Assembly: GCA_022376465.1 (NCBI GenBank)
Contig: JACDTU010000015.1
Location: 744,001-808,000 of the forward strand
Reading direction: 5' to 3'
DNA length: 64,000 nt
DNA from: Cubamyces lactineus
Taxonomy: Eukaryota > Basidiomycota > Agaricomycetes > Polyporales > Polyporaceae
The translations under genes were made by a program, and so were the position numbers. How positions within the stretch are numbered: position 1 is the stretch's first letter; the number at the start of each line of letters is the position of its first letter. Positions 12,565 through 56,600 of this stretch are shown in pieces. The notes under the pieces were generated by a model. It had not been told where the DNA came from, made no database searches, and saw nothing but the letters and a program-made list of their open reading frames with translations.

Positions 12565-12786
12565 TGGACCAGGGCGAGGAGGACTCGAGGGCCGAAGAGG
12601 GCGAGAGCGAGCGCTAGGAAGAGAAGGAGGAGAAGGGAAGCGCGCGAGAAGGATTAGTCAGCAGAAGGAGGGAGAGAGCGTAGTCGGGATACATGAGGGG
12701 GGGGAGCCGTCTTTCGGGAGGATGGGGAGATCATCTAGCTTGTCGTACACAGAGCATCTCTGGCATATCCTATCTAGGCTGGTCCA
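12565..12786 (+). repeat. 5' LTR of element P
   Basis: 222 bp, purine-rich, starting TGGACCAG and ending CTGGTCCA. The same sequence recurs at 19523-19744. No clear TATA box was found. Confidence 0.92.
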
Positions 12787-12788
12787 TC

Positions 12789-12803
12789 TGGTGACGAGAG
12801 TGG
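12789..12803 (+). other. primer binding site of P, tRNA-Leu type
   Basis: TGGTGACGAGAGTGG begins 2 nt after the LTR. It matches the complement of the 3' end (with CCA) of the tRNA-Leu at 62334-62442 in 14 of 15 positions, and the similarity continues beyond into the T-arm. A related Leu isoacceptor is the likely primer. Confidence 0.7.
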
Positions 12804-13110
12804 CGATTGAACCACGAAAAGCGACAGTCACACCAACCTGGCTCGGACAAAGAAGAACGACGATCGGCCGAGGAACAAACTAGGACAATACGTGTCCAAA
12901 GCAACACACAGTGTGGCGGCATCCGAGAACGAAGACATTGACATCCCTATTCCCAGTATCGAACCACTCCCACACCTCTACACACAAGAGAACCTCACGA
13001 CGTTCGAGATCCACAGAGCAGCGCAGGAGCAGTTCAAATTCCCGTCGATACACACAGCGCCAGAAGACGATAGCAAGAAGTGCCGACAGCGAAGAGGAGC
13101 GCAGGACAGC

Positions 13111-14349
13111 ATGGTGGAGACGAGCGGGACGAGGCCGTCGTTTGCAGGAGAACTCAACAACGAGAACCCAAAACAGTTCTGGAAGGACGTCGATGAATAC
13201 CTCAGCAACTGTGAAGACGCGAAGAAATGCAAGCGCTTCGGAAATCTGCTCAAAGCCGGTTCCGCCGCAGAAAGCTGGTTCGAAGAACTCGATAAGAGTA
13301 CAAGAGAGGACTGGGACGCACTCGAAGCAGCGTTCAAGGAGAAGTTCATCCCCAAAGTCGTCCAACAAATCACCGACACCGACCTCGTCAATCTACTGCT
13401 GCAAGACAAGCCGTCCGAAGACGACATCCTCACGTACAAGACGACAGCTCTAGGCACGCTACCGTACCACGTGTGGTGGGCGAACGAGCTCGACAATCGC
13501 GTCGCCAAGTACAAAGCCGGGCAGCATCTGGCAGAGCGCGTACGGGAAGCCCTACCCTACGTCCTGAGGAAGCATGTCGAAACCGTCACGAGCTGGAAAG
13601 AACTGTACGAAGCGATCAAGAAAGCGGACGCGGGGAAGATGAAAGAAGAGGTGGAGTTTTTCAAGAGTCGAGGCATAGGAGAAGGGGAGAAGAAGACAGA
13701 AGGGGCGCGACAAGGAGGCGGGAAGGAGGAGAAGGCCAACGACAGCGAAATCAAGACGCTCATCGAGGCACTCAAGGAGCTCACAGTAGCAAGAGCGAAC
13801 GCGGTGAGCTCGTTCCAACGACCCCCCATCTACGCTCCTCCGCTTCCATCCATACCGCCGACGAGCGTACACAGCCAACGAGCTAGTGGAGCATCAGGCC
13901 TGAGAGAGTCTCCAGAGAGGAGGTTAGCCCTCGTAAGGAGCAACGCACTCGCGCCACCGCCGGACACAGACGAGGGGCGCAAGCTGTATGAGGCGCAAAC
14001 GCGCGAGTGGCAGACGAAGCACGGAGGGCAAAGCCCGAACGAGTACAGGCCGTACCCGTTAACGCCAGGCACGTTGCCGGTAGCATCGAAGGACTGCTGG
14101 AGATGCGGTTTCGAAGCACACGGGCGAGGGAACCCATGTACGAGGACCAAGCTCCCTGAGCTCGAGACACAGTGGCGCATGACAGCCGGGTTCGTAGAGA
14201 GAGACGCGAGAATGCGGGGAGTTCAGCTGGTCACAGGGGAAGCGTACCAGGCAGGAACACAATCGTACCCAAGGGCAGGACAGATATGCGTAGGGGGGCA
14301 GTGGTTTCCGTATATCCCAGACGGCGAATGGAGCTCGGGAAATGTGTGA
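13111..14349 (+). CDS. P gag polyprotein
   Basis: Gag of 412 residues from ATG 13111, the first ATG after the LTR. The same frame is open upstream for at least 73 more codons (to a GTG at 12892), so an N-terminal extension from a non-AUG codon is possible. The retrotransposon-Gag-like core is FAGELNNENPKQFWKDVDEY through ...ALEAAFKEKFIP. A Lys/Glu-rich helix and a Pro-rich segment follow. A zinc-knuckle-like C-X2-C-X4-H-X5-C (CWRC..EAHG....C) is one residue longer in its last spacing than the classic CCHC. The protein would form the virus-like particle and bind RNA. The frame ends 6 nt after the slippery heptamer described in the next feature. Confidence 0.8.
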   Translation: MVETSGTRPSFAGELNNENPKQFWKDVDEYLSNCEDAKKCKRFGNLLKAGSAAESWFEELDKSTREDWDALEAAFKEKFIPKVVQQITDTDLVNLLLQDKPSEDDILTYKTTALGTLPYHVWWANELDNRVAKYKAGQHLAERVREALPYVLRKHVETVTSWKELYEAIKKADAGKMKEEVEFFKSRGIGEGEKKTEGARQGGGKEEKANDSEIKTLIEALKELTVARANAVSSFQRPPIYAPPLPSIPPTSVHSQRASGASGLRESPERRLALVRSNALAPPPDTDEGRKLYEAQTREWQTKHGGQSPNEYRPYPLTPGTLPVASKDCWRCGFEAHGRGNPCTRTKLPELETQWRMTAGFVERDARMRGVQLVTGEAYQAGTQSYPRAGQICVGGQWFPYIPDGEWSSGNV

Positions 14350-14382
14350 GGGCCGTCGACACGGAGGATCGGACGACGGTCC
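14337..14382 (+). promoter_or_regulatory. -1 ribosomal frameshift signal between P gag and pol
   Basis: Slippery heptamer G_GGA_AAT (14337-14343) is in the gag frame. A 6-nt spacer, including the gag stop, leads to a 9-bp stem: 14350-14358 pairs with 14374-14382 (one G-U pair), loop 15 nt. Slipping one base back enters the pol frame (GGG AAA TGT). Confidence 0.8.
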
Positions 14383-17300
14383 CTACAGCAGATCCCGGGG
14401 CAGTTGCGGAAGGACTCGAAGGTAGCTGCGTCACAGAATACTCAGAGAGAGTTGCACAGACGGACTCTGATAGAACTACGAATCGACATGTACAGTGCTC
14501 GAAGCGTATCGAGAATGAGACCGTGTCATTGTATTCCGTGGGCGCAGCTATGAGCGAGAGAGAGGAGGCTCAACCATTCATCTGTCACTTCACACTGTCG
14601 CATCGAACGACAGGTACAGCAGTAAGAGTCAAAGGACTAGTAGACGATGGGGCGATGGTGAACGTCATGGACACAGAACTGTGGAAACAAATCCACACCA
14701 GGCTAGAACCAGCGCAGGCGTCCGATAAAACACTGCGCATGGCGAACGGAGCCACAGTGAAATCACAAGGAAAATGGAGGGGGTTATTCGATTTCCAAGG
14801 AGTACATGTTAACAGCGCATTCGAGATATTCCCGAGCCAGGGAGCGTGGTCATTCCTCATAGGCAAACCGCTACTTGAAGCGCTTAAGGCGACACATGAC
14901 TATGAATCAGACCAAATAATCGTGAGCAACGACCGCTATAAAACAGTAATAGAGAATCAGAGGGGGAGAACGTGGGGAGATCGCGCGCTGAAGCATAAAG
15001 GCCTGATGCTCACGCTAGACGCTAAGATGTGCCATACAATGATCGAAGCGGAGGAGACAGAATACACGGTCAAAGATGCGCTGACGGACACTATCACGCA
15101 GCAGATAACTCCAAGGTTCAAAACCGTAACAGTAGAAGAAGAAAGCGAAGAAGACAAGGGAGAAGAAGAGGACGTGCGAGAAGAGCGAGAGAGCTACAAG
15201 AACGAGCAGCGAACAAAATTAGCGCCGGCGGAGTGGATAGCGGGACGTCGAAGAGCGAGACGCCAGACGCAAGCAAAGAACACGACCAACGAAGCACAGG
15301 CAACTTACAAACCAGCAAAACAGCACGCAGTGAACCAACACGAAGACGACGAACGGTACATCGGACCAGACGCGAAGGAAGTCTACAACAACCCGGAAGA
15401 CCAATCAGAACTCGCGGTGAATGCAGTCACAACAGAACGTAGAGCAGCTGACGAGCAGAGCATATACACCAGAACCACGGAACCGTTCAAAACAGAACGC
15501 GTTCAAGCCATAGTCGACGCCATACAACTAGGAGACGACATTACGGAAGAACAACGCAAAGCGGTACAAGACCTAGTTAAGCAATACGCAGACTGCTTCG
15601 CGCTGTCAGTCAAGGAAGTCATACCAGTACCAGGTGAAGTACACACGCTCTCAGTACCCACAGATGCTACCTTCTCCAAAAGTGTCCACCAGCGTCCATT
15701 GACAGCGCCACAACGGAAGTACGTGCATAAGAAGATCGACGAACTACTGGAAGCCGGAGCGATTGAACAATGCACACCGAGCCAAGTCAAGTGCATAGCG
15801 CCAATCACGCTAGCGTACAAGGTACACGAAGGCGAAGGGCTCACAATGGAAGAACTACGACAACGAGTCAATGAAGAATGCGAAACACTCAAAATACCGA
15901 AAGCGTTCCCAGATGTGGACAACACCGACTTCAGGCCAACAACGATCAAACCAACCACGGAACGCAAGTGGAGGATTTGTCAAAACTTCGGAGAAATCAA
16001 CAAAGTCACCAAGATAGCAGCGGTACCTCAAGGGGACATACGACAAAAGCAACAGAACTTAAGTGGACATCGGTGGGTCTGTACATTTGACTTTGCATCA
16101 GGTTTCTACGCAGTCACCCTAGCAGAAGAATCAAGACCGTACACGTGCTTCTACATAGAAGGGCGAGGGTACTTCTGGTGTGTCAAGATGCCGTTCGGTC
16201 TCACAGGTGCACCAGCCACGTTCGGCCACATGACCGCGAAACACCTACACGACCTCATAGCGGACGGTATCATGGAACTCTTTGTCGACGACGGAGGCGC
16301 GGCAAGCGACGACTTCGAAGACATGATGGGCAAGCTAAAGAAGATACTAGAGCGAGTGCGACAATGTAAACTCTCGCTGTCACCCGCAAAGTGCAAGTGG
16401 TTCATGAGCGAAGCAGTATTCGCGGGCGGCCTTGTCGGAGCACACGGCGTGACCCCAGACAGAGCTAAGTTGACCGCAGTCGTAGACTGGAAGAAACCGG
16501 AGGACGCACTGAACCTTATGTCATTCTTAGGTCTTACAAGCCACTTCCGTGATCTCATCAAAGACTACGCAAGGATCGAAGCACCACTCCGGGACCTTCT
16601 CCGGGACGTACACGTACCAAAAGGTGCGAAGAAAGGATTATATAGGCGAGCGATGCAGAACTACAAGCTGAGTACCAAATGGACGCATACACATGATAAG
16701 GCCTTCGTACAGCTAAAGTCGATACTAACGTCAGAACCAATCCTCAAAAGGCCAAAGTGGGATGGAACACCATTCATTGTAACCACGGATGGCTCGAAGG
16801 ATGGTTTCGGTGCAGTACTAGCACAAAGAAGTACGACTATACTACACAGTGGAAAAGCAGTGACAAAAATACACCCCGTCGCATTCGCATCGAAAAGAAC
16901 GTCAACTAGCGAAGAGAAGTACAAACCTTTCCTCCTAGAATTTGCTGCACTGAAATTCGGTCTAGATAAATTCAAAGACATCATATGGGGGTTTCCAGTC
17001 GAATTGGAAACCGATTGCCAAGCGTTACGCGACGTGTTGTCAAACGACAAGCTAGTCAGCACACATGCACGGTGGCGCGACGGAATCCTAGCGCACCAAA
17101 TCGTAGACGTCAGACATGTACCAGGAAAACTGAATACAGTTGCAGATGGACTCAGCCGAGTCAGCGAAGGAGCACCGCGGCAAGACGGAGACGGAAGTGA
17201 ATGGACAGTGTGCGAAGATTGGGAAGCAAACACAGGACTTATCAATGATGTGTTTCAGGTGATGTCCCCCACCGAAAATGATGATGACAACGTTGAAAAG

Positions 17301-18743
17301 CTTCTCCACAGATTCCGTGAAGAACCGGTATTCGTTGAAGTCATACAAGCAATTATGAACATAGATGGAGAAGAAGACGAACGCAAACGCAGAAGAGCAA
17401 AACACCGAGCAGAACAGTATTCAATAAACGATGGGAAGCTATGGCGAATACGGGGCGGTACGGCAACCAGGAGCAGACACCGCACAGAGTGCATCACGAA
17501 GAAGGAAACAGTCGAGAAAGCACGTGAAGTTCATCAAAACCAAGGACACTGGGGGCGGGACGTCATCAAGATCACGCTCATGGACAAGTACTGGAGTCCG
17601 AAGATGGACACATCGATACTGGACGGCATACAACATTGTGCGAAGTGCAAGAACTTTGGGTCAATGCAACTACACGCCCTCCTGGAGCCAATCACACGAA
17701 GACACCCATTCGAGCTGCTCGTAGGCGACTACTTGTCCATGCCAGATGGGAAAGGCGGCTACCATACACTCGGTGTGTTCCTAGACACGTTCTCACAACA
17801 CGTCTGGGCTTTCAAGTTCAAAACAGCAGGTACCGCAAAAACAACAATAGAAGCGTTACGACATATCTTTCAAGGCTTCATACCGGCGGAAACGTTCATG
17901 ACAGACGGCGGGAAACACTTCGATAACCACGACGTGCGCGAGTTCTGTGCAAAATGGAACACGAAACCGCACGTTGTAGCAGCATATGCGCCGTGGATCA
18001 ATGGTCTAGTCGAAGGAACAAACAAACTGTTACTCCATGTCTTGAAACGATTATGTGCCCCAGACCTAGGCGAAGACGACTGCAGAGACGATACAGAAGC
18101 CAGCTGGGACAAGCTACCAAGGAATTGGACAGAACATTTAGACACTGCGGTGAAGTGTCTTAACTATCGCATTCTGCCCGCACTGAAATTCTCCCCGAAG
18201 GAACTTCTACTCGGCCGGGTAGTGAACACACCCAGTACACCCATCTCGACAGCTCTAGAATCGATCACGCAAGAAGATGCAGAGCAACACATAGCGTACG
18301 TGGCACAACAGCACCTCGACGGGTACGAAGAAGCGGTAAGGCATGCAATACAACGGAAAAGAACATTCGACAGGAAGGTCATGAGGTCGAGAGCGGGCGA
18401 GGTCTTATTCAAAGAAGGCGACCTCGTGCAAATTTACCGAAGTGATCTAGACTACACATTCAAAACCGAACGAAAATTGCTGCCGAAGTGGTCGGCACCA
18501 TACCGCGTGGTGAGTCGCATGACCAACTCATACGAGTTAGCTACGCTGGCGGATGTGAAGTTAGCAGGGAAATACAATGCAAGAAGGCTGCGACTCTTCG
18601 TACCAAGGCCGGGCACACAACTAGACAAAGACGAAGAACGGAGAAGGCTACAGAAAGAGAATGAATCAAACCTGCAAGCGAATAGCGAAGAAGCGACATC
18701 AAGGACAACTGCGGTAGTTACCGACGCAGCAAAAATTAGCTGA
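14344..18743 (+). CDS. P pol polyprotein (protease, RT, RNase H, integrase)
   Basis: Made as a Gag-Pol fusion by -1 frameshifting; its frame is open from before the gag stop to 18743. Domains in order, numbered from the frame's upstream GTG at 14172: aspartic protease with an unusual DDGA instead of DTG/DSG (158-161); reverse transcriptase with FVDD in place of YxDD (704-707); RNase H (TTDGSKDGFGAVL, then ...LLEFAAL...); integrase with an HHCC finger (HQNQGHWGRD...CAKC) and D1186, D1245, E1281. The D-D(35)E spacing is normal for Ty3/gypsy. The C-terminus (KWSAPYRVV...) resembles a GPY/F module, but no chromodomain follows. The reading frame is intact, so the enzyme set may be functional. Confidence 0.9.
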
Positions 18744-18783
18744 GTAATCCCATTCTATTTTGCGCTTGCTATGCGACATCACC

Positions 18784-19575
18784 ATGCCATCGTCGCTTCG
18801 AAAAGCACAAAAAACGAGACCCAGGTGGCAGAGACAGACGACAAGCCACACTCTCTCTCACCCAACTCCGTCCACTGCTATACCTGACACTCATTACCAC
18901 AACATAGATATGCCCGACGCCCTGACGATCGCCCTTCGGAAGGCTGTGGAGGCTATGCACTCAGTCAACGTCCAATATGTCAGCTGTGCAACACACCCGC
19001 AAGGATACGATGTCTTCGCCACAAAAGCGGACCTCGTAAGGACAATCGGGGTCGGAGACGAGGTCGACCTGATGTATAAAAGGATGCAGAACGGGTGGGT
19101 CGTCGGACTCCCCGTGAAAGTGTCTAGCATCAGGGTTATCGAGGAACGCGGAGTCGAGTTCGTCGCACACCGGCGGAGCGTTCAGAACGAAGAAAAACCC
19201 GAGTACGTCCTCCTGCAAGTACCTAGGAACAAAGCTCGTGTCAGCAGATGGCCGATATGGGACTACTTGCGGAGCAAACCGTGGACGCAGTCGACCATTC
19301 CACCCCCCGTCGGTGATGGAGGGAACCCGATCCAAGTCAGAGCGGCGTACTCGCTTAAACGGTTCTTTGAACCGGAGAGGCCGGACGTGCGAGAGATTCA
19401 AACGCTGCTGGACGCGTTTCCGTGCGAGTTCACAGTGACACTGGTGGACGAGAAGGGTCAGCGGCGGGAAGTCCTTCTGGGAACGACGGCGACGGGGACG
19501 TCGCCACTTGGAGGGGGGCACATGGACCAGGGCGAGGAGGACTCGAGGGCCGAAGAGGGCGAGAGCGAGCGCTAG
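18784..19575 (+). CDS. P extra ORF downstream of pol, unknown function
   Basis: Open frame of 263 codons 40 nt after the pol stop, from ATG 18784 (a second candidate ATG is 18910, MPDALTIAL). It runs through the polypurine tract and ends about 50 nt inside the 3' LTR, so its last residues (MDQGEEDSRAEEGE...) are LTR-encoded. No signal peptide, membrane segment or zinc finger is seen, which argues against an env-like protein. The middle looks like a folded beta-rich domain (GVGDEVDLMYKRM, WVVGLPVKVSSIRV). I do not recognise a family. How it is translated is unclear: it has no overlap with pol, so it may need a spliced or subgenomic RNA. Confidence 0.6.
   Translation: MPSSLRKAQKTRPRWQRQTTSHTLSHPTPSTAIPDTHYHNIDMPDALTIALRKAVEAMHSVNVQYVSCATHPQGYDVFATKADLVRTIGVGDEVDLMYKRMQNGWVVGLPVKVSSIRVIEERGVEFVAHRRSVQNEEKPEYVLLQVPRNKARVSRWPIWDYLRSKPWTQSTIPPPVGDGGNPIQVRAAYSLKRFFEPERPDVREIQTLLDAFPCEFTVTLVDEKGQRREVLLGTTATGTSPLGGGHMDQGEEDSRAEEGESER
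19510..19522 (+). other. polypurine tract of P
   Basis: GGAGGGGGGCACA lies directly before the 3' LTR, the expected plus-strand priming site. It also lies inside the extra ORF. Confidence 0.75.
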
Positions 19576-19744
19576 GAAGAGAAGGAGGAGAAGGGAAGCG
19601 CGCGAGAAGGATTAGTCAGCAGAAGGAGGGAGAGAGCGTAGTCGGGATACATGAGGGGGGGGAGCCGTCTTTCGGGAGGATGGGGAGATCATCTAGCTTG
19701 TCGTACACAGAGCATCTCTGGCATATCCTATCTAGGCTGGTCCA
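19523..19744 (+). repeat. 3' LTR of element P
   Basis: 222 bp, identical by eye to 12565-12786. Followed by the ACGT target duplication at 19745-19748. Confidence 0.92.
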
Positions 19745-23648: not shown

Positions 23649-26600
23649 ATGGTCAAAGTACACTGTTCGCACTGCGGGAGGGATGTCGCGCCTTCAACCG
23701 AGTTCCGACATCGCACCGGAAAAGCTCCAACAACTCTCAGAGCGGCAGCATTGGCAAACGATCGCCCATGGTTCGAAGGAACACAAGTTGTCAAGCGGCG
23801 GCGAGTAGAGGTCTTGTCAGACCGCAGCGAGCCCTTGTACGAGGCGGTTGCTGGAGGGGAACAACATCCGGAGACGATCTCCTCTGCAATACCAAGTATG
23901 TCGCACATTTTTCCATTATGCTGAATGATGAACTGAACTCCTTTGGTGCACTGTGGTTACACCCTCAGCATCTTCATCCAGCAGCTCAGCAGATGCAGCG
24001 ATACATGCAGCTCAAGAACGAATATGGGCGGGACGTCAGACCCGGAGGGCCTATGTTGAAGATGACATTGATGAAGACGACTCAGGCAGGCAGGAGCACC
24101 AAGATGATGAAGATATGTTCGAGTACGTCTGGGGTACCGAGGAGTACGATGCAGATGAGTATAGTGCTATATCTGCATGGGATGAGCTATCGGAGTACTT
24201 CCTGGGCTGTGCGGCAACATCGGGTACGTAGTACCGTTTCACACATAACTTAGCATATTCAATGAGTATTTGCGGACAGCTATGGATATCTCAGAGGAAG
24301 ATTTGCGAACTTTGCGGCCGTTTGCGCTCAAGGTCGATACCCATATGCCAGGTGCGACCTTTGCCAAACTTCCCTTTGCATTCCCGGATTCGCACATCAA
24401 TTCTTGGAAAGTTGTTCAAGCTCGCGTTGCACGACTTTCAGGCTTTACACCTGAACTTTATGACTGTTGCGTCAACTCATGCGTGTGTTTTGTCGGCCCA
24501 CACACCCAGCTTTCTGCCTGCCCTCACTGCTCAGAGAATCGCTATCGCTCTAATGGGAAGCCACGATCTCGCTTCCTTTATCTGCCGTTGACACCACGTC
24601 TTCAAGCTCTGGTTGGCAATCAACGTTCAGCTCAGCGTATGCGGTATCGGGCGGTGGAACACCAGCACAGGCCGGGGATCATTTCCGACGTCATGGATTC
24701 CTCAAACTACCGTACGCTACTTGGCCAACACGTCGTCGTAAATGGCAAGCAGCTTCCGCACCTGTTCTTTGATGATCCGCGTGACATCGCACTTGGGGCA
24801 TCGACCGACGGCTTCGCACCACATCGTCGCCGGAAGAAAACGGCGTGGCCGCTTATCGCATTCAACTACAACCTTCCCCCTGAGATACGCTTCCATCTCG
24901 AGCACATTCTCCCACTCGGCGTCATTCCAGGGCCCAAGAAGCCGGTTGACTTCGACTCCTTCTTGTGGCCCTTTGTCCAAGAGCTCCTCCGACTATCTGT
25001 TGGCGTTCACACATACGATGCTCTCTCCGCGGAATTCTTTGCTCTGCGCGCTTATCTCATCCTTGTCTTTGGCGACATTCCAGCCATCTCTATGGTGATG
25101 AGGATGAAGGGCCACAATGGCTATACTCCCTGTCGCATGTGTACTATCCACGGCATCCGGCCGCCAGATGTACGCCAACCAACCCTCTATGTACCTTTGG
25201 ACCGCACCCGGCATCCTAGTGCTATTGCTTCGAATGGTCCGAACACTTGCTTGCTGTACGATGTTACAAATGTACGATAGGCGTCTTACGAACTGTACGA
25301 TTTGGTATGGTCTCTACTTCCGTCTCTGTACTATATGAATATGGCGGACTCTAGGATTCTAGCTACGGTTCTTAAAGACAGGAATGGTCTCGTATTATCT
25401 AGGACTCTCTAGGACTTTCTATGCACAGTTACTGCTGCACAGTGCACAGTTACTTCCGCGCAGTGCACAGGCGCTTCTGCACAGTCCACAGCAGCACTGC
25501 CACAGTGTTACTAGGTTCGACTAGCGCTGACTACTACGCACCAGAAAGTCCATGTACACGTTAGAACATTCCGTCTACAGGCCTGCATACATGTATATAA
25601 GAGGCGACGCCATAGAGCGACCCTCAGCTTTCAGTCTCTTCGCGAAATACGACTTTTGTTGCTCGTTAACTCGCTTTCAACTGCAAATACTACTACGCGC
25701 TTATCTTCGACAAGCTAGGGCTAGTAGCTGAATAGATACAAGCTCTCTATTCATTGACGTCTTAAGGCTTGATAGTTTAAGAGTCACGCTCGAAAGCGTA
25801 ACATTAGACTGAAAGCTTTAACCCTCCACTTGTTAAAAGTGTAGAGGCCTACGTCGGAAGACAACGACTACGAAACGCATCAGAACCCTCTCTTGCTCGT
25901 AACGTACAGAGAGACAATAGTCAATACGGAGGGAACTACACAACCCCCATTGCGACAATCACCCGGGGTACTAGACGGAAGGAACAAAACACTGCCGAGG
26001 CTACCACCACTCGCGATCCCGGAGAATATAGTTGCTCTCCCAAGTTCGCCAAGAGGATCCCCATTCCCCTTGATAAGAGGTTTTAGCTCGACAATCCCTT
26101 ACGTAGAAAGTACCAGTTCAATATCGTCGGGTCAGAGCACTCGAGTATCGGACCACGAACCCGCGTTTCAGCGAACACAAGAGTGGAGAGAATATAGGAA
26201 TTCTCTGGCCATTCAGGCGGAATCAGGAGTAGCAATAGGCGTACCCATTCCAACCCGAGCGAGTCCAGGAACGGATAGTTCGGATCGATCGACTCCAGAA
26301 ACTAGTGTTGAAGAAGCATCCTCAACGGCAGGGATATTCTATCGGAGAACACAGCTTCCGGTGCACGCGATCGATACACTTCGAGTTATAGCAGATAACT
26401 TGGAAGTACTAGGACAGGAAGACTTCACGAGGAGATATCACGCGACTCTCGAACGAGCCCATCGATACATAACTCAGGTCATCCAGACACTCGAATTTAT
26501 TCCAAGACAAGCTGTTACGCCTCCAACGAGGGTACGGAACTTTGCGGGATATCTTCAGAACCAGATTGACTACCTGCGAGCAAAGGTCCTCAATCCGGAG

Positions 26601-29600
26601 AACTACGCAGATATAGACCTCGAAGAAAATCTTAGGAAATTTCGTAGTTGCCTCCGAGCTAGGGAACTACATCAGGCTTTCCTACGACAAGCACAACGTG
26701 TATGAGTTCAGCTGAACCATATAGTTGTTCAAGGTTATATCATCTCTACAACTCCGACAAAGCTCGGGACGTATACTATCGAGAAAGCGTAGACAAGTGG
26801 AATTTTTGCACCAACGAAAGGTGTCCACTTCGGTACAACACTAAGGAGGTTCCAAACGTCAAGCACGCATCGGCTTTAATCCTAACACACTCTTCACAAG
26901 AGCGGGATATTACTAACACCCACGGACGACAACCCGCGTTAGTCAAGAAGCCACTACTTGCTGGAAAAGCTACTGGTCGGATTAATAGTCCGAGAGTTGT
27001 GTCAGGATCGTTTCCGACTTCAAGAGTAGGAACCCCAAAACCTCAAGAATCCGAATCACCTAAGGAATCAGGTCCATCCTTCAAGGAGAAAGGAAAGGAG
27101 ACCGAACCGCCTAAGGTAGAGGACTCGGACAAGGAGGACGAGACTTTTCGGACGACGGTCGAAGCACCTGAACCGAAAATCGAAGAAACTATTCAGATTA
27201 AGGTCGTAGTACCTGCACCGAAAACAGAAGACACTCGGGTCGAGGCAGAAACACCTGAACCGAGAGAAGAGCATATTCAGACAGAGGTCGAGGAGACTAA
27301 ATCTGAATTGGAGTATACTGGTCGCAGCGCAACCCCAGAATTTGTACGAAAATCAGTACCATCGTACATGTCGGGAACAGCGACAGGAGAGTCCATTTCT
27401 GGAGCCCATAGATATGCGTTCACTCCGCAAGGGCAAGGCTCAGAAGGAGAAAGATACGGGTCTTTATCAAGTGGACCAGCCCCTCGGGCAACGGCAATTT
27501 CTGGAGGAGTTATCAATCCTTCTGGAGGTGGAGGAGGAGGCGGACCAGGTAGGCCCGGAGGTCGGCCTGACCCTGAGCCTTCAGATCCCTACTCCCCAGG
27601 AGGAGGACCACCAGGACCAGACCCAGACCCGGAACCGCAAGAAGCTCCAGGAAATGCGCCGCAAGGACACGGAAAGGGCAAGATCAAGGACCCTGAGGTC
27701 TTCAACGGAGACCGAGACAAAACCAGGTCCTTCCTCAATCAACTGTTCCTGTTGTTCACGGCGCGACCCCACGACTTCGTTAATGACTACACGAAGGTGG
27801 CGACGGCCCTATCCTTCATGGAAGGGGACAATATAAACTACTGGAAGGACATCACGATTCAGCGAGCTGAAGAGGAAATTAGACCGGGAGTTTATCGAGG
27901 ATTTGACTCTTGGCCGGTCTTCAAGAGGAATTTCCTGCTCGCATTTGCCCCAGTAGACGAGGTGGACGACTCTATGGTTAATCTCACGACGATACAGCTC
28001 AAGGACTACTCTTCAGTCGATGAGTTCAATGCGAGGTTCATGGATCTAGCTCTCAAGGGAAAAATTCTGGACCCAGCAGCGCAACTGGCCCTGTACAGGA
28101 ATGCGCTTCCAGAATATTTACTGAAGAAGATATCCATGTCGTACCCTCCGCCGACGACCATTGAAGAGTGGATGACTAGGACTAAGGAGATCGACCATAG
28201 CTATCACCTTACGGAGAAGATTTTGGCTAATCGCAGAGGACGCAAGGCCAAAACCTTGAAGACTAAGAAGAATGTCAAGACGGTTAATATCGAGGACGAC
28301 TCGCTCGATATTAACAAGCTCTCTGTCAAGGAGAGACAGGAGCTGCAAGACAAAGGACTATGTTTCCGGTGCAGGAAGCCGGGACATATTTCCAGAGACT
28401 GTCCTTCTAAACCTAAGAAGCCCGGCAAACCTGTTAGTCGAAAGGTACGACAGGTTACCGACGAGGACTTAGAGGACGAGTCTGAGGAAATCTCAGACGA
28501 AGAGGACGACGAGGACGAAGAGGACAATGTTTCTATTAACGCACTCAGGGCTACAGATTTCGAGACGGGTTTTTAGGCAGGCAAGCAGACTCGACGCCTG
28601 ACTTGCCCAAGGAACTGCATGTAACTATTGTAACCAATACAGAGCGGAGACGCAGTGCTCTGCTGATACCCGGTTACATGCAGGTTCAGGACAAAGCCGT
28701 CGAAATCAAGGGACTCATTGACACTGGTGCGGATGCCGTGATCGTCAATAAAAAGATTGTGGACAAGTACAATCTTCCGACAGTCAGACTACCAAAGACT
28801 CTGACTTTCCGGAACGCGGACGATAGCGTTAATAGCATGGGAACCATTACCCATCGGGTGGAGGGGACATTTAATCTCCACGGGAAGAAGCTCCCAACAA
28901 ATTGGTATGTGGCCGACATTGGGCGGGACGATGTCCTATTCGGCATGCCATGGATCCGCAAGTACAATCCTAATATCGACTGGGAAAGTGGTCGCATTAC
29001 TTTCAAGTCGGATATTATCAAGAAGCAGCAGCAGATCCATAAATACCAATGCGAGCACGACCCACCCGAAGGGATGCTGTGGAATTTCCCAGTAAAACCT
29101 CAAAATCAAGACCTGGTCGTATCGTTCGTACGTGCTATACCGGACGAGGACGACGCAGACCCAGACTCCGAAAGGCTTACATTTAATCCTTCGAGGGCCA
29201 TTGAGCTATGGTACCGCAAGAAGAAAATCCGAAAGATTAATAAGTCTACGGAGATCGCTATAGCAGCGAAGAAAGACCAGAAGGAGAAGACCTTGGACGA
29301 AATCCTACCTGATTTTGTAAAGGACTACCGACAGGTCTTTGAGAAAAAGGCAGCAAGTAGATTTCCGCCCTCGAGACCATGGGACCATGCTATCGAATTC
29401 AAGAAGGACTTCGACCATCATACCAAGGGGTCTTGGAGGAAAATCTACCCTCTGACCTATACGGAACGTATAGAACTCGACAAATTCATTGCGGAGAACC
29501 TTGAGAAGGGCTACATTCGAAAATCCAAGTCTCCACTAGCCTCGCCATTTTTCTTTGTCACCAAGAAAGATGGGAGTCTTCGACCTGTTCAAGACTACAG

Positions 29601-32600
29601 GGCTCTTAACGAGGGGACTATTAAAAACGCATATCCCTTGCCGCTCATCAGCGACATCATTGACCGGCTGAAGGGGGCCACAATATTCACCAAACTCGAC
29701 GTGCGAGCAGGGTACAATAATGTGCGCATCAAGGAGGGCGATGAGTGGAAAGCTGCGTTTATAACACCCAGTGGATTGTTCGAACCAACAGTCATGTTTT
29801 TTGGTCTGTGCAATGCACCGGCCACATTCCAAAACATGATGAATGACCTCTTCCGAGACATGCTCCAGGAAGGATGGATGGTCATTTATATGGACGACAT
29901 CCTGATATTCTCAGACAATGTCGAGGATCACCATGAGCGGACGCGAAGAGCTTTACAGCGACTTCAAGACAGTGATCTATTCCTCAAAGCGGAAAAATGC
30001 GAATTCGACAGACAAGAAGTCGAATTCCTAGGATCAATAATCCGACCGGGGGTAGTCGCTATGGATCCAGTAAAGCTAAAGGCAATTATCGAGTGGGAAC
30101 CACCGAAAACAATCAAGCAGGTTCAGGCATTCCTGGGGTTCGGTAATTTCTACCGACGGTTCATTCGGGATTATTCAAAGATAGTCCGACCCCTCACGGA
30201 ATTAACCAAGAAGGACCAGCCTTTTCTGTGGACCCCTGATTGTCAGAAAGCATTCGACACACTCAAGAAGCGGTTTACTGAAGAACCGATCCTGCAAATC
30301 CCGGATCCGGAGAAACCATTTCAGATTGAGTGCGATGCTTCTAAAGTCGCAACAGGTGCTGTACTACGACAGCAAGGAGAGGACGGACTATGGCATCCTT
30401 GTGCCTATTTGTCCAAGTCCTTTACTCCTGCGGAACGGAACTATCAGATTTATGATAGGGAATTGTTGGCCATTGTTCGAGCCCTCGAAGCATGGCGGCA
30501 TTTTTTGCAGGGTTCCCCACACCCTACAGAAATTCTATCAGATCACAAAAATCTGACCTACTTCCGTACGGCGCAGAAGCTAAATCGCAGGCAGGCACGA
30601 TGGCATTTATTCCTCTCGGAGTTCAACATCGTAATCAAGCACCAACCCGGAAAATCCCTCACTCAAGCAGACGCCCTTTCTCGGAGATCAGGGCATGACG
30701 GGGGGGAAAATGACAACAAGGATGTCGTATTATTGGGACCAGAACTTTTTGCCAAAGCTGTCAACGTTGAGCTACAAGAGCGCATCCGCGATAGCAAGCT
30801 ACGGGACAGCTCGGTAGTAGAGTACATTACCCTAAAAGGAAAGGCTACCAAACGCCCAGAGTTCGGCAAACCAGAAGATTGGTCCGACGACGACGGAATA
30901 CTCCTGTACAAGAACAGGGTATATGTTCCACCAGATAATCAATTGTATCGTGATATAGTCAAGATGCATCACGACGCACCGATTATGGGACACCCAGGAG
31001 TCCAGAAAACCTACGATCTGGTTAAACGGGAATATATGTGGCCAGGCATGCGGAAATTCATTGTGCAATATGTCAAAGGTTGCGCCGCTTGCCAAACAAG
31101 CAAGGTCAATACGCATCCCATTAAACCAGGCTTAATTCCCATTCAACACAGTGGGGATACTAGGCCTTTCCGGACCATTACAATGGATTATATCACGGAT
31201 CTACCAGAGTCGGATGGATTCAATGCTGTCCAAGTGGTAGTTGACCATGATGTATCCAAGGCAGCGGTATTTTCCCCTTGCACTAAGAATATTACGGCAG
31301 AAGGAGCCATGGATATTCTGCAAAGGGATGTATATCGCAGATTCGGACTACCTGCGAAGGTCATCTCGGATCGAGGGCCGCAATTCATCTCCAAGGCATT
31401 CAAAGAATTACACAACAGCCTCGGAATTGAAACGGCACTCAGCACGGCCTATCATCCTCAGACAGATGGGGAAACGGAGCGAGTCAATCAGGAACTCGAC
31501 TTAGCACTTCGGCTCTACTGTGCTAACAATCCGGAGAACTGGGCCAAACTGCTGCCTCAATTCGAATTCGCGCACAATCAGCGGACACACTCTGTCACGG
31601 GAAAATCCCCGTTTGAACTCCTCTACGGGTTTCAGCCAGAGGCCGCTGGGACAGTCCGAACCACCCCAAAGCATCCAAGTACGGAGCAGAGGCTTCAAAG
31701 TCTTCAGGAAGCCAGGGAGAATACAATAGCTGCGCATGCGCAGGCCGCCGCAGCCATGTCAAGAAGACTCCCCGCTGCTCAAGTTCCGCTGAAGCTCGGA
31801 GACAAGGTTCTTCTCGATACAAAGAACCTCAGGCTTCCATATGTCTCTAGGAAGTTGATTCCAAAACGAGTGGGACCGTTCGCTATCGTCAAGGTCTTGG
31901 GACCGGTTACATTTAAGTTAAAACTTCCGGAGAAATGGAAGATACACCCAGTCTTCCACGCAGCGCTACTTACTCCGTACCACACAACTAAGGAGCACGG
32001 ACCAGACTACATCCGACCTCCACCGATTCCCACTCCAGACTCGACGGAAGGAGAGGAATGGGAGGTAGAAGCAATCCTAAGCCACCGTACCCGAGGTACC
32101 CGAAAACAGTACCTAGTGGCTTGGAAGGGTTGGCCTGCATCGGAGAATTCTTGGGAACCAGAAAAACATCTCAAGAATGCGCAGTCAATCCTGCGCAACT
32201 ATAAGAAGAGGCACAAATTGTCGTAAAAAGACTCAACCCACTCCTCACTCAAATATTCCCTCCAATTTTCTAAACATTTTCTGATATTCACTATGGTCAA
32301 CACTCGCACTCATCTCACTGGTCGCCGCTTCTCTGAGGCTTCCAGACGCAACATTCCCCGTCCCCCCAACTTCATCCGCGAACGGAGGACGGTTTTCTAC
32401 AACCACCTCCCTCGACACACTGTCTCGGCCAACGACGAAGGCACCCTCGCCGACCACATCGGCTGGGTCATTGTCCACCCCGACCTCTACAGTCACGTAG
32501 AGGCTCGAATTTCTCATCTCCCTGAGGTCAAGGACCTCATCGACGTCTACCGCTCTCTCGCCAGGGCTGCTCCGTCCTACGGAGTTCTCGTCAACTATAA

Positions 32601-35600
32601 CAAGAGGACGTCGGCGCCCAAGTCGGAGAAGAAGAAGGTCGATCAGGTTGCGAACGAGGCTTACCAGGCGGTGATCCAAGGAGCAGAGAAGGTACTCTCG
32701 ATGCTCGCTAACCCCCAGATCGCGGGGGCTCTCTCGGATCTCATGCCCCTCCGCAACCAACACGGTACTCATAACTGGGGACATATTTTCTGGCCGCAAC
32801 GTCTCGATGACTACCCGGAGTCTATCGAGGTAGATGAGGATGAAGACGCGGACGTGAGTTCAGTCGGAGGATGGTCAGTTCCCTCAACTGACCCATGGAA
32901 GATTGCTACTCCAGACCCCGAGGAAGAAGCCGTCAAGTGGGGACAAACCTCTGAGGAGTCCACCCCCTCTTTGGTTTCATCTCGCTCGGATTCACCTTAC
33001 TCCGAGGTGGAATCGTTCGACTTTCTCCCGGAGCTTGAGCATCTCGAGCTCAGTACGGTTGACGAGGTCGACGAGCTCCTTGAGGAGGAGTTCCACGAAG
33101 CCCTGAAGGTCGCGGTTAGGGCACCCTCTCCTCCTCCTCCCCCACCAGCGACTCTCACTAAGAACGCGGAAGAACCTCGCGGACGCTGCGGTTTCTTTCG
33201 AGGAACCGGAGAAGATCGACTTGGCTATGTCAATTCCAACGGCGACATCTTCGTGGTCCCCAACAATCCTTTCGGCATCTCCGTCACTCGGATCATGGTC
33301 GCATACCATCTGCGATGGCCGGAAGCTTCTGTCAGGACCACAATGGCAGCCTCTCTCCTTATCGACGACGTCATCGCTCGTCGAGGAAATTTCCCTGCCT
33401 TCAAGATCGAGGCCGAACGCACCCCGACGACTTATCGCCAGGCTATAGGCATGTCGGCGGCAGAATCGGCGCAGTGGGATTGTATTCGGGCAGTAGGTAA
33501 CGTGTCTGACCTCGTCCAGACCTCTTTGGACGTCTTCCGTCCTGAGGTCGTCGAGCGTAACCAGAACATTATCGTGCATGCCTAAGGTCGAGGACGACCT
33601 TCAGCGGAGGGGGAGCTAATGTTACAAATGTACGATAGGCGTCTTACGAACTGTACGATTTGGTATGGTCTCTACTTCCGTCTCTGTACTATATGAATAT
33701 GGCGGACTCTAGGATTCTAGCTACGGTTCTTAAAGACAGGAATGGTCTCGTATTATCTAGGACTCTCTAGGACTTTCTATGCACAGTTACTGCTGCTGTT
33801 ACGAATGTACGATAGGCGTGTTACGAACTTTACGAACTGGTACAGTATCTGCTTCGATCTCTGTACGATACAGATATGGCGGACTCTAGGATTTAGCTAC
33901 GGTTCTATAAGACAGGAATGGTCTCGTATTATCTAGGACACTCTAGGACTTTCTATGCACAGTCACTTCTGCACAGTGCACAGTTAATTCCGCGCAGTGC
34001 ACAGGCGCTTCTGCACAGTCCACAGCAGCACTGCCACAGTGTTACTAGGTTCGACTAGCGCTGACTACTACGTACCAGAAAGTCCGTGTATACGCTAGAA
34101 CATTCCGTCTACAGGCCTGCATACATGTATATAAGAGGCGACGCCATAGAGCGACCCTCAGCTTTCAGTCTCTTTGCGAATTACGACTTTGGTTGCTCGT
34201 TACCTCGCTTTCACTGCAAATACTACTACGCGCTTATCTTCGACAAGCTAGGGCTAGTAGCTGAATAGATACAAGCTCTCTATTCATTGACGTCTTAAGG
34301 CTTGATAGTTTAAGAGTCACGCTCGAAAGCGTAACATTAGACTGAAAGCTTTAACCCTCCACTTGTTAAAAGTGCAGAGGCCTACGTCGGAAGACAACGA
34401 CTACGAAACGCATCAGAACACTCTCTTGCTCGTAACGTACAGAGAGACGATAGTCAATACGGAGGGAACTACACAACCCCCATTGCGACAATCACCCAGG
34501 GTACTAGACAGAAGGAACAAAACACTGCCGAGGCTACCACCACTCGCGATCCCGGAGAATATAGTTGCTCTCCCAAGTTCGCCAAGAGGATCCCCATTCC
34601 CCTTGATAAGAGGTTTTAGCTCGACAATCCCTTACGTAGAAAGTACCGGTTCAATATCGTCGGGTCAGAGCACTCGAGTATCGGACCACGAACCCGCGTT
34701 TCAGCGAACACAAGAGTGGAGAGAATATAGGAATTCTCTGGCCATTCAGGCGGAATCAGGAGTAGCAATAGGCGTACCCATTCCAACCCGAGCGAGTCCA
34801 GGAACGGATAGTTCGGATCGATCGACTCCAGAAACTAGTGTTGAAGAAGCATCCTCAACGGCAGGGATATTCTATCGGAGAACACAGCTTCCGGTGCACG
34901 CGATCGATACACTTCGAGTTATAGCAGATAACTTGGAAGTACTAGGACAGGAAGACTTCACGAGGAGATATCACGCGACTCTCGAACGAGCCCATCGATA
35001 TATAACTCAGGTCATCCAGACACTCGAATTTATTCCAAGACAAGCTGTTACGCCTCCAACGAGGGTACGGAACTTTGCGGGATATCTTCAGAACCAGATT
35101 GACTACCTGCGAGCAAAGGTCCTCAATCCGGAGAACTACGCAGATATAGACCTCGAAGAAAATCTTAGGAAATTCCGTAGTTGCCTCCGAGCTAGGGAAC
35201 TACATCAGGCTTTCCTACGACAAGCACAACGTGTATGAGTTCAGCTGAACCATATAGTTGTTCAAGGTTATATCATCTCTACAACTCCGACAAAGCTCGG
35301 GACGTATACTATCGAGAAAGCGTAGACAAGTGGAATTTTTGCACCAACGAAAGGTGTCCACTTCGGTACAACACTAAGGAGGTTCCAAACGTCAAGCACG
35401 CATCGGCTTTAATCCTAACACACTCTTCACAAGAGCGGGATATTACTAACACCCACGGACGACAACCCGCGTTAGTCAAGAAGCCACTACTTGCTGGAAA
35501 AGCTACTGGTCGGATTAATAGTCCGAGAGTTGTGTCAGGATCGTTTCCGACTTCAAGAGTAGGAACCCCGAAACCTCAAGAATCCGAATCACCTAAGGAA

Positions 35601-53600: not shown

Positions 53601-56600
53601 TGAGAGCTAGATCCATGAACCTCGCATTGAACTCATCAACTGAAGAGTAGTCCTTGAGCTGTATTGTCGTGAGATTAACCATAGAGTCATCCACCTCGTC
53701 TACTGGGGCAAATGCGAGCAGGAAATTCTCTTGAAGACCGGCCAAGAGTCAAATCCTCGATAGACTCCCGGTCTAATTTCCTCTTCAGCTCGCTGAATTG
53801 TGATGTCCTTCCAGTAGTTTATATTGTCCCCTTCCATGAAGGATAGGGCCGTCGCCACCTTCGTGTAATCATTAACGAAGTCGTGGGGTCGCGCCGTGAA
53901 CAACAGGAACAGTTGATTGAGGAAGGACCTGGTTTTGTCTCGGTCTCCGTTGAAGACCTCAGGGTCCTTGATCTTGCCCTTTCCGTGTCCTTGCGGCGCA
54001 TTTCCTGGAACTTCTTGCGGTTCCGGGTCTGGGTCTGGTCCTGGTGGTCCTCCTCCTGGGGAGTAGGGATCTGAAGGCTCAGGGTCAGGCCGACCTCCGG
54101 GCCTACCTGGTCCGCCTCCTCCTCCACCTCCAGAAGGATTGATAACTCCTCCAGAAATTGCCGTTGCCCGAGGGGCTGGTCCACTTGATAAAGACCCGTA
54201 TCTTTCTCCTTCTGAGCCTTGCCCTTGCGGAGTGAACGCATATCTATGGGCTCCAGAAATGGACTCTCCTGTCGCTGTTCCCGACATGTACGATGGTACT
54301 GATTTTCGTACAAATTCTGGGGTTGCGCTGCGACCAGTATACTCCAATTCAGATTTAGTCTCCTCGACCTCTGTCTGAATATGCTCTTCTCTCGGTTCAG
54401 GTGTTTCTGCCTCGACCCGAGTGTCTTCTGTTTTCGGTGCAGGTACTACGACCTTAATCCGAATAGTTTCTTCGATTTTCGGTTCAGGTGCTTCGACCGT
54501 CGTCCGAAAAGTCTCGTCCTCCTTGTCCGAGTCCTCTACCTTAGGCGGTTCGGTCTCCTTTCCTTTCTCCTTGAAGGATGGACCTGATTCCTTAGGTGAT
54601 TCGGATTCTTGAGGTTTTGGGGTTCCTACTCTTGAAGTCGGAAACGATCCTGACACAACTCTCGGACTATTAATCCGACCAGTAGCTTTTCCAGCAAGTA
54701 GTGGCTTCTTGACTAACGCGGGTTGTCGTCCGTGGGTGTTAGTAATATCCCGCTCTTGTGAAGAGTGTGTTAGGATTAAAGCCGATGCGTGCTTGACGTT
54801 TGGAACCTCCTTAGTGTTGTACCGAAGTGGACACCTTTCGTTGGTGCAAAAATTCCACTTGTCTACGCTTTCTCGATAGTATACGTCCCGAGCTTTGTCG
54901 GAGTTGTAGAGATGATATAACCTTGAACAACTATATGGTTCAGCTGAACTCATACACGTTGTGCTTGTCGTAGGAAAGCCTGATGTAGTTCCCTAGCTCG
55001 GAGGCAACTACAAAATTTCCTAAGATTTTCTTCGAGGTCTATATCTGCGTAGTTCTCCGGATTGAGGACCTTTGCTCGCAGGTAGTCAATCTGGTTCTGA
55101 AGATATCCCGCAAAGTTCCGTACCCTCGTTGGAGGCGTAACAGCTTGTCTTGGAATAAATTCGAGTGTCTGGATGACCTGAGTTATGTATCGATGGGCTC
55201 GTTCGAGAGTCGCGTGATATCTCCTCGTGAAGTCTTCCTGTCCTAGTACTTCCAAGTTATCTGCTATAACTCGAAGTGTATCGATCGCGTGCACCGGAAG
55301 CTGTGTTCTCCGATAGAATATCCCTGCCGTTGAGGATGCTTCTTCAACACTAGTTTCTGGAGTCGATCGATCCGAACTATCCGTTCCTGGACTCGCTCGG
55401 ATTGGAATGGGTACGCCTATTGCTACTCCTGATTCCGCCTGAATGGCCAGAGAATTCCTATATTCTCTCCACTCGTCTGTTCTCTGAAACGCGGGTTCTT
55501 GTTCCGATACTCGAGTGCTCCGACCCGACGATGTCGAACTGGTACTTTCTACGTAAGGGATTGTCGAGCTAAAACCTCTTATCAAGGGGAATGGGGATCC
55601 TCCTGGCGATCTTGGGAGAGCAACTATATTCTCCGGGATCGCGAGTGGTGGTAAGCTCGGCAGTGTTTTGTTCCTTCCGCCTAGTACCCTGGGTGATTGT
55701 CGCAATGGGGGTTGTGTAGTTCCCTCCGTATTGACTATCGTCTCTCTGTACGTTACGAGCAAGAGAGAGTTCTGATGCGTTTCGTAGTCGTTGTCTTCCG
55801 ACGTAGGCCTCTGCACTTTTAACAAGTGGAGGGTTAAAGCTTTCAGTCTAATGTTACGCTTTCGAGCGTGACTCTTAAACTATCAAGCCTTAAGACGTCA
55901 ATGAATAGAGAGCTTGTATCTATTCAGCTACTAGCCCTAGCTTGTCGAAGATAAGCGCGTAGTAGTATTTGCAGTTGAAAGCGAGTTAACGAGCAACCAA
56001 AGTCGTATTTCGCGAAGAGACTGAAAGCTGAGGGTCGCTCTATGGCGTCGCCTCTTATATACATGTATACCAGCCTGTAGACGGAACGTTCTAGCGTATA
56101 CAAGGACTTTCTGGTGCGTAGTAGTCAGCGCTAGTCGAACCTAGTAACACTGTGGCAGTGCTGCTGTGTACTGTGCAGAAGCGCTGTGCACTGCGCGGAA
56201 GCGACTGTGCACTGTGCAGAAGTAACTGTGCATGGAAAGTCCTAGAGCATCCTAGATAATACGAGACTGTTCCATAGAATCCGCCATATACAATCGTAGC
56301 TGGAGTCCCAGAGCCTACCATACTTGTATCGTACAGAGTAAGTACTAGAAACCGTTACCAGTTCGTCGAGACGTCGCAATACCTATTGTACATTCGTAAC
56401 ACCACTTTGTTGATCTTGTGCGACTCATACACCGCTGTCTTCAATTCGAGATATCCTCCGAAGAGGTCCAGGAACTACGGGAAGGGTTTGCCAAATGGGT
56501 TAGGCAGTACGAGAGGTGAGCATGTCATACTAGTTCTCCGCTCTTCTCTGAGACTCACAGAATTGCAGAATTTACTATCAGCTGGATCCGACGAGGCTCT

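Follow-up and report, generated by a model that had tools for sequence, protein, structure and literature searches.

How does a retrotransposon express gag when the first kilobase of its predicted RNA contains no AUG, and does the long open reading frame (ORF) inside that leader encode a protein? These questions are raised by an element that begins at position 25262 of a 64,000-nucleotide (nt) stretch of Cubamyces lactineus DNA (hereafter the window; positions 744001-808000 of contig C7). By its sequence, the element is a multicopy chromodomain Ty3/gypsy retrotransposon (chromovirus), because it encodes a CCHC-containing gag and a pol with protease, reverse transcriptase (RT), RNase H, integrase and chromodomain. 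Pfam detected rve, RVT_1 and RNase H in pol and, after the integrase, the PF00385 chromodomain (E=1e-15). An earlier note on this DNA had proposed that the leader encodes a first cistron with a non-AUG start. Judging from the sequences analyzed here, we consider it likely that the RNA is polycistronic and that gag is reached by leaky scanning through an AUG-less ORF1. Unless stated otherwise, all features lie on the + strand.

A six-frame search of the assembly (36.3 Mb, 43 contigs) for copies of the element gave at least 86 rows, including 62 close copies (94-100%, none with stops) and 24 divergent or fragmentary ones. DNA was examined for 48 of the 62 close copies, for 12 divergent loci (L047-L058, representing 14 of the 24 rows) and for one further row (L069). 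The close copies are referred to as subfamily A and the divergent copies (66-73% identity) as subfamily B. Since 7 of the 12 divergent copies carry in-frame stops, they are regarded as decaying insertions.

An ATG-free leader and the frame within it

The 5' long terminal repeat (LTR; TGTTAC...GTAACA) spans 25262-25803, its ends being read off the sequence alongside other LTR matches in the window, and the LTRs of this element are about 542 nt long. A TATA box (TATATAAG, 25594-25601) starts 32 nt 5' of the predicted RNA start at 25626. The predicted RNA 5' end (AGCTTTCAGTCT, 25626-25637) would serve as a self-primer, as it is the reverse complement of the primer-binding site (PBS; AGACTGAAAGCT, 25806-25817), which is located 2 nt past the LTR and includes a CTG (25809-25811). 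This 12-nt match is exact in the A copy L020 and likewise in the B copy L052. The match, with the priming presumed from it, offers independent support for an RNA start at 25626 and, together with the TATA spacing, opposes an RNA start far downstream, which had been named as a possible refutation of the first-cistron proposal.

No ATG is present in the leader (25626-26701); the next ones are found at 26702, the start of gag, and at 27368. The same absence between RNA start and gag was observed in all 48 close copies examined. The expectation of about 17 ATGs given in the earlier note holds for random sequence, and about 16 are predicted from the ATG frequency of the window (1 per 67 nt), whereas the leader's own dinucleotides give only 6.5-6.8. 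In a first-order Markov (Markov-1) simulation, 34 of 20,000 leaders were free of ATG and 1 of 20,000 contained an open frame of at least 286 codons. Permutations of the same letters are kept in the leader (observed versus expected: GAT, 17 vs 17.5; TAG, 23 vs 20.1; GTA, 14 vs 13.1; TGA, 7 vs 10.3). Moreover, the longest ATG-free runs in the window, the top three on the + strand (1110-1111 nt) and the top one on the - strand (1111 nt), are those of this family's four copies. The next-longest runs (666 nt) lie within gag of the same family, and the longest run outside it is 524 nt (top-12 lists, both strands).

The leader contains ORF1 (25845-26705), a Met-free frame of 286 codons with a non-ATG start and a TGA end within ATGA. 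Its stop overlaps the gag start as originally described (TGA 26703-26705 over ATG 26702-26704). The frame is open over 25845-26702, which upholds a long Met-free ORF, but in the first window copy it is cut by an in-frame stop at 25842-25844, and starts upstream of this stop are therefore unusable in that copy; the stop is missing in 44 of the 48 close copies. In all four window copies (ORF1 starts at 25845, 34378 and 38286, and at 55810 on the minus strand) ORF1 is of equal length, as had been claimed, and the leader is ATG-free. No stop was found in ORF1 codons 28-286 of any of the 48 close copies, and 47 of them have no net indel, the other one (L043) having a 2-nt deletion 5' of codon 28. 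The divergent copies have 0-9 ATGs each, with only one of the 12 (L047) having none. In L048-L054, 11 of 12 ORF1-internal ATGs correspond to ACG in the ATG-free L047, and these ATGs look like later CpG decay.

ORF1 has the same 858-nt length in both subfamilies, and the seven B copies measured show no net indel. The ratio of non-synonymous to synonymous changes (dN/dS) between these copies and the window copy is 0.35-0.38 (282-284 codons), and 0.36-0.39 when L039 is used instead. Changes between L020 and L052 show a third-position excess (48/47/86 at the three codon positions). Among the close A copies, which differ by few changes, the dN/dS check suggested in the earlier note gives scattered values (0.11 to 0.995) that speak neither for nor against coding. 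With protein and codon set fixed, out-of-frame ATGs are absent from ORF1 of subfamily A (0 vs 4.47 expected, P=0.0002) and of the B copy L052 (0 vs 3.98, P=0.001); the same test is weaker when codons are sampled according to the codon usage of the element (P=0.002 and P=0.022, respectively). No significant out-of-frame loss was detected in capsid gag (9 vs 10.6), pol (39 vs 35.0) or ORF3 (8 vs 8.9). By these sequence signs, ORF1 is protein-coding and, in addition, has been cleared of ATG in the frames not read during elongation, a pattern that fits the prediction of scanning through a translated ORF.

Two protein searches yielded 18 ORF1 relatives. After nine near-duplicates, fragments or chimeras were dropped, ten lineages remained (the window copy plus nine proteins, 41-73% pairwise identity, several of them N-terminally short), and these contain no Met in 2,581 residues, the first residue excluded. 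Over all 18 relatives, 4 internal Met were found in 3,873 residues (one in P0001, two in P0008 and one in P0018), and those of P0008 and P0018 appear to sit in non-homologous stretches. The relatives mostly end in V, I or A, residues whose codons can all have A as the final letter in front of TGA. NCBI and UniRef contributed none of the 18, as against 8 of 14 gag relatives, all named Trametes cubensis. The proposal of a translated first cistron without an AUG is thus supported by the between-subfamily dN/dS, the lack of net indels, the third-position excess and the Met-free relatives, and ORF1 appears to represent a new AUG-free protein family in self-priming chromoviruses.

Start codons of ORF1 and gag

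On an RNA starting at 25626, any start of ORF1 must be non-AUG because no ATG is available. The CTG within the PBS, previously suggested as one candidate, fails as a general start, since 11 of 12 divergent copies and 4 of 48 close ones have the frame closed between PBS and ORF1 (the four close ones lie at four different target sites and carry a stop corresponding to that at 25842), unless such copies moved with help from others. An in-frame GTG before ORF1 was also rejected as a general start, the same block being in another frame in subfamily B. In the alignment, P0001 begins at this GTG, and the same would hold for P0004, P0009 and P0010.

A scan of 163 codon positions, beginning 23 codons 5' of ORF1, found a single near-cognate codon that A and B share and that has A at -3 and G at +4 in each of them, the ACG at codon 28 (25926-25928). 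It is kept in 48 of 48 close and 9 of 12 B copies and is the best, as yet unproven, candidate for the ORF1 start. In the five other lineages reaching this site (B, P0004, P0005, P0009 and P0010), [KNT]-T-[AE] is found at the ACG or, by a shift set by eye, within one residue of it, which fits ANN-ACN-GNN at the candidate start. In addition, A-B changes 5' of this codon (8/11/11) show no codon periodicity. A second candidate, the ACG at codon 3 (25851-25853), is common to A and B and has a weaker context.

The four-fold sites of 25851-26210 and the preceding leader are unusually conserved between the subfamilies. In the first 360 nt of ORF1, 4 of 42 four-fold sites differ between A and B, versus 19 of 60 later (Fisher P=0.009, with the 360-nt cut point picked after the data were seen), and 205 of 224 positions are identical from the RNA start to ORF1. 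This region is perhaps a packaging signal.

The long form of gag (26702-28576, with a CCHC knuckle) starts at AUG1, whose context is weak (T at -3, A at +4); the 21-nt context is identical across all 48 close copies. Besides AUG1, the ATG desert extends through a second ATG-free stretch of 663 nt within gag (26705-27367) up to AUG2 (27368-27370), which is in the gag frame, is kept as PS[YF]M and would yield a short Gag. Both gag starts are conserved. In 46 of the 48 close copies no ATG lies between them; L023 has one extra and L015 three. L015 also lacks AUG2 at the usual place, and in L036 AUG2 is shifted by 3 nt. We found 14 gag relatives and examined ten; eight of the 14 are annotated in Trametes cubensis (73-93% identity). 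In six Gag lineages (the window copy plus P0026-P0030), the Met-free span after AUG1 covers 173-221 residues up to the in-frame AUG2, which is invariant in the alignment. Altogether, these six have no Met in 1,159 residues from AUG1 to PS[YF]M versus 30 in 2,278 afterwards (Fisher P=6e-6). The N-terminal part of Gag is well conserved (YSCxRxYH, CTxxRCPLRYNT), and long Gag is therefore probably made. Inside gag, a +1 frame of about 140 codons (27414-27836) opens from an ATG just past AUG2. It was set aside as a by-product, as its length varies among copies and is short in some.

Weighing the routes to gag

The explanation that we favor is leaky scanning on the full-length RNA, which would act as a polycistronic mRNA. 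Ribosomes would scan from the 5' end at 25626, and a minority would make the ORF1 protein by initiating at a non-AUG codon, of which ACG 25926 is the most likely. Most would traverse the roughly 1.1 kb AUG-free stretch to the first AUG, AUG1 at 26702; as this is weak, some would continue to the in-frame AUG2 at 27368 and produce a shorter Gag that lacks the conserved Cys/His-rich region at the N terminus. The earlier note had left leaky scanning and stop/restart side by side, and of the two the former is favored because both out-of-frame ATGs and in-frame Met have been purged. Termination-reinitiation, in which ribosomes translate ORF1, stop at the UGA in AUGA and restart at AUG1, would suit the TATGA found in 48 of 48 close and 12 of 12 B copies, the compatible V, I or A ends of the relatives and the weak AUG1 context. 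However, it does not predict the purge, since translating ribosomes ignore out-of-frame AUGs and tolerate in-frame Met. Moreover, the calicivirus UGGGA core of a termination upstream ribosome-binding site (TURBS, an element of 40-87 nt a short way 5' of the overlap) was not found in the final 120 nt of ORF1 in either L020 or L052, which both have AGGGA at -41. We regard this route as unlikely, but stop/restart could, given the ATGA, act in addition to leaky scanning. A -1 frameshift fusing ORF1 to Gag was rejected, as the L020 overlap contains no X XXY YYZ heptamer.

Leader splicing is known from other retroelements, and a spliced or internally started RNA could express ORF1 or gag and leave the long leader unscanned. 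Yet neither predicts ATG loss throughout ORF1, and the spliced leader that could have undone the original proposal found no footing: GTRNGY donors are absent from the leaders of 59 of 59 copies (L056, whose leader is unalignable, being excluded), a weak point given that a leader is expected to contain just 1.1-1.6 of them (P 0.2-0.33 in three leaders tested). No spliced retrocopy was seen either, the ORF1 length being kept in 47 of 48 close copies and the remaining one having a 2-nt deletion. We therefore find this explanation quite improbable. Internal ribosome entry at gag, with another role for ORF1, is harder still to credit. The conserved four-fold sites (4/42 vs 19/60) and leader (205/224 identical) may indeed reflect an RNA element, but no ATG purge would be expected and a packaging or priming signal accounts equally well for the conserved leader. 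An ordinary long 5' untranslated region (UTR) with ORF1 as a fossil or chance frame has in its favor that a scanned UTR is expected to be AUG-free in any case. Against this stand the rarity of a 286-codon frame (1/20,000 simulations), the dN/dS of 0.35-0.38 with no net indel and protein relatives down to 42% identity, and we give this explanation next to no credence.

Several observations weigh against leaky scanning as we describe it. YPFLARxLRKR, just 5' of ACG 25926, is shared with variation by P0004, P0005, P0009 and P0010; this suggests that coding begins before codon 28, possibly near codon 3, and a TTG in good context at codon 4 is specific to subfamily B. The first residues of the ORF1 relatives are given as M by the database, and a real ATG there is possible. 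AUG2 also has a weak context (T at -3), L015 and L023 have ATGs between AUG1 and AUG2 in this very genome, and the depletion of out-of-frame ATGs in N-terminal gag with the protein fixed is modest alone (P=0.022). Within the lineage of the window copy, three Trametes cubensis proteins that were left out of the six-lineage count contain Met in the AUG1-AUG2 region, two residues past the first one in P0019 and as the annotated first residue in P0020 and P0024. Finally, 3 of the 7 B copies in the dN/dS set have in-frame stops, and some close A pairs approach a dN/dS of 1 (maximum 0.995, 4 synonymous vs 12 non-synonymous changes). A fuller version of leaky scanning holds that one uncut RNA is read in three tiers by single-pass scanning (ORF1 from ACG, long Gag from the weak AUG1 and short Gag from AUG2), that start-codon strength sets the ratio of the three structural proteins, that this arrangement is conserved over several related chromovirus lineages and that annotation has missed the ORF1 family for want of an AUG. 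Taken jointly, these parts form a tentative scheme that we find plausible but lean slightly against.

The ORF1 product, surrounding features and known systems

No Pfam family matched ORF1 at E<=1, and none of the 61 pattern matches in an IMG/VR scan is an ORF1 relative. A duplicate of Gag was rejected as its origin, as hhalign of the ORF1 profile against the Gag profile gave a probability of 0.1 over 7 aligned columns. Two AlphaFold models have a mean predicted local distance difference test (pLDDT) score of 50.6 and 51.2, with only parts of residues 173-285 fair, and Foldseek against PDB, run with the first model only, returned 102 matches at E<=10, of which none reached E<=0.001. The models suggest that the protein is probably disordered in its first half and helical in its second half. 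From these halves and the place before Gag, our guess is an accessory structural or RNA-handling role.

The pol frame (28540-32226) encodes protease, RT, RNase H, integrase, SH3_Tf2-1 and chromodomain. An extra ORF of 430 amino acids (32293-33582) follows it; its ATG lies in a strong context, and Pfam assigned it to no family at E<=1. Nested and tandem copies occupy 25262-47005, and judging from the LTR matches at 33619-33796 and from 33797 onward, one copy appears to have been inserted into the 3' LTR of another. On its other side, the element adjoins the end of an open frame (24249-25280) whose product resembles a KDZ-type transposon protein. A separate LTR element with 222-nt repeats is present at 12565-19744; its gag-like frame is open from 12811 and has its first post-LTR ATG at 13111, which makes it a possible second case of a non-AUG or late start. 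Elsewhere in the genome, L069 (G000:C29:76450-77650) was rejected as a distant relative, being a rearranged derivative with broken ORF1 remnants. It is short, keeps LTR, PBS and leader, and is possibly non-autonomous.

In the plant element Ogre, one extra ORF is located before gag. Excerpts of two papers describe 1-2 extra ORFs in Ogre (PMC6431247) and, in Retrosat2, an ORF0 that lies 5' of gag-pol and changes faster than it (PMC3485330). Like these plant Ty3/gypsy elements, the element has an extra conserved ORF of unclear role; unlike here, the excerpts mention no AUG purge or non-AUG start, and the hosts differ. ORF0 of Retrosat2 and ORF1 are likened by position rather than sequence. The stop-start overlap recalls caliciviruses and non-LTR retrotransposons (AUGA, UAAUG, in the excerpts available), but an AUG-free first ORF would be unneeded there and the UGGGA core was not found in our element. 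Tf1 and Tj1 share with the element the PBS complementary to the RNA 5' end (PMC4600332, in excerpt), and SH3_Tf2-1 and a chromodomain are further features in common with elements of the Tf1/Tj1 type; that excerpt mentions no AUG-less ORF upstream of gag for Tj1. In section 5 of a survey of fungal gypsy elements, a figure legend names an additional ORF of unknown function, with no start codon given in the legend (PMC2864245). Judged by title and abstract start, no paper on an AUG-less ORF 5' of gag in a fungal LTR element was found among the matches listed in one open library. If our interpretation is true, it adds a gene family that start-codon-based annotation has missed, and ATG deserts in retroelement leaders would offer a simple search handle for further AUG-less first ORFs.

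Caulimoviridae are pararetroviruses without LTRs and integrase, and the element, with LTRs, integrase and chromodomain, falls outside this family. The closest parallel in scheme is nevertheless a plant pararetrovirus, rice tungro bacilliform virus (RTBV). According to the part of the source available, about 10% of ribosomes use an AUU for RTBV ORF I and the others scan on; over 900 nt, ORFs I and II contain no internal AUG, and the third ORF is reached by some ribosomes that pass a moderate AUG (PMC5902531). The element resembles RTBV in its AUG-free first ORF, its weak first AUG and a third start past a further AUG-free stretch (PMC5902531, same part). It differs in that the RTBV leader has upstream ORFs and a shunt, and that the third RTBV start opens a separate ORF, whereas AUG2 is in frame within gag. 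The AUG absence from all 48 close-copy leaders examined constitutes a strong natural test of scanning. If true, AUG-purged leaky scanning, described for a few plant pararetroviruses, would also have arisen in integrated fungal retrotransposons.

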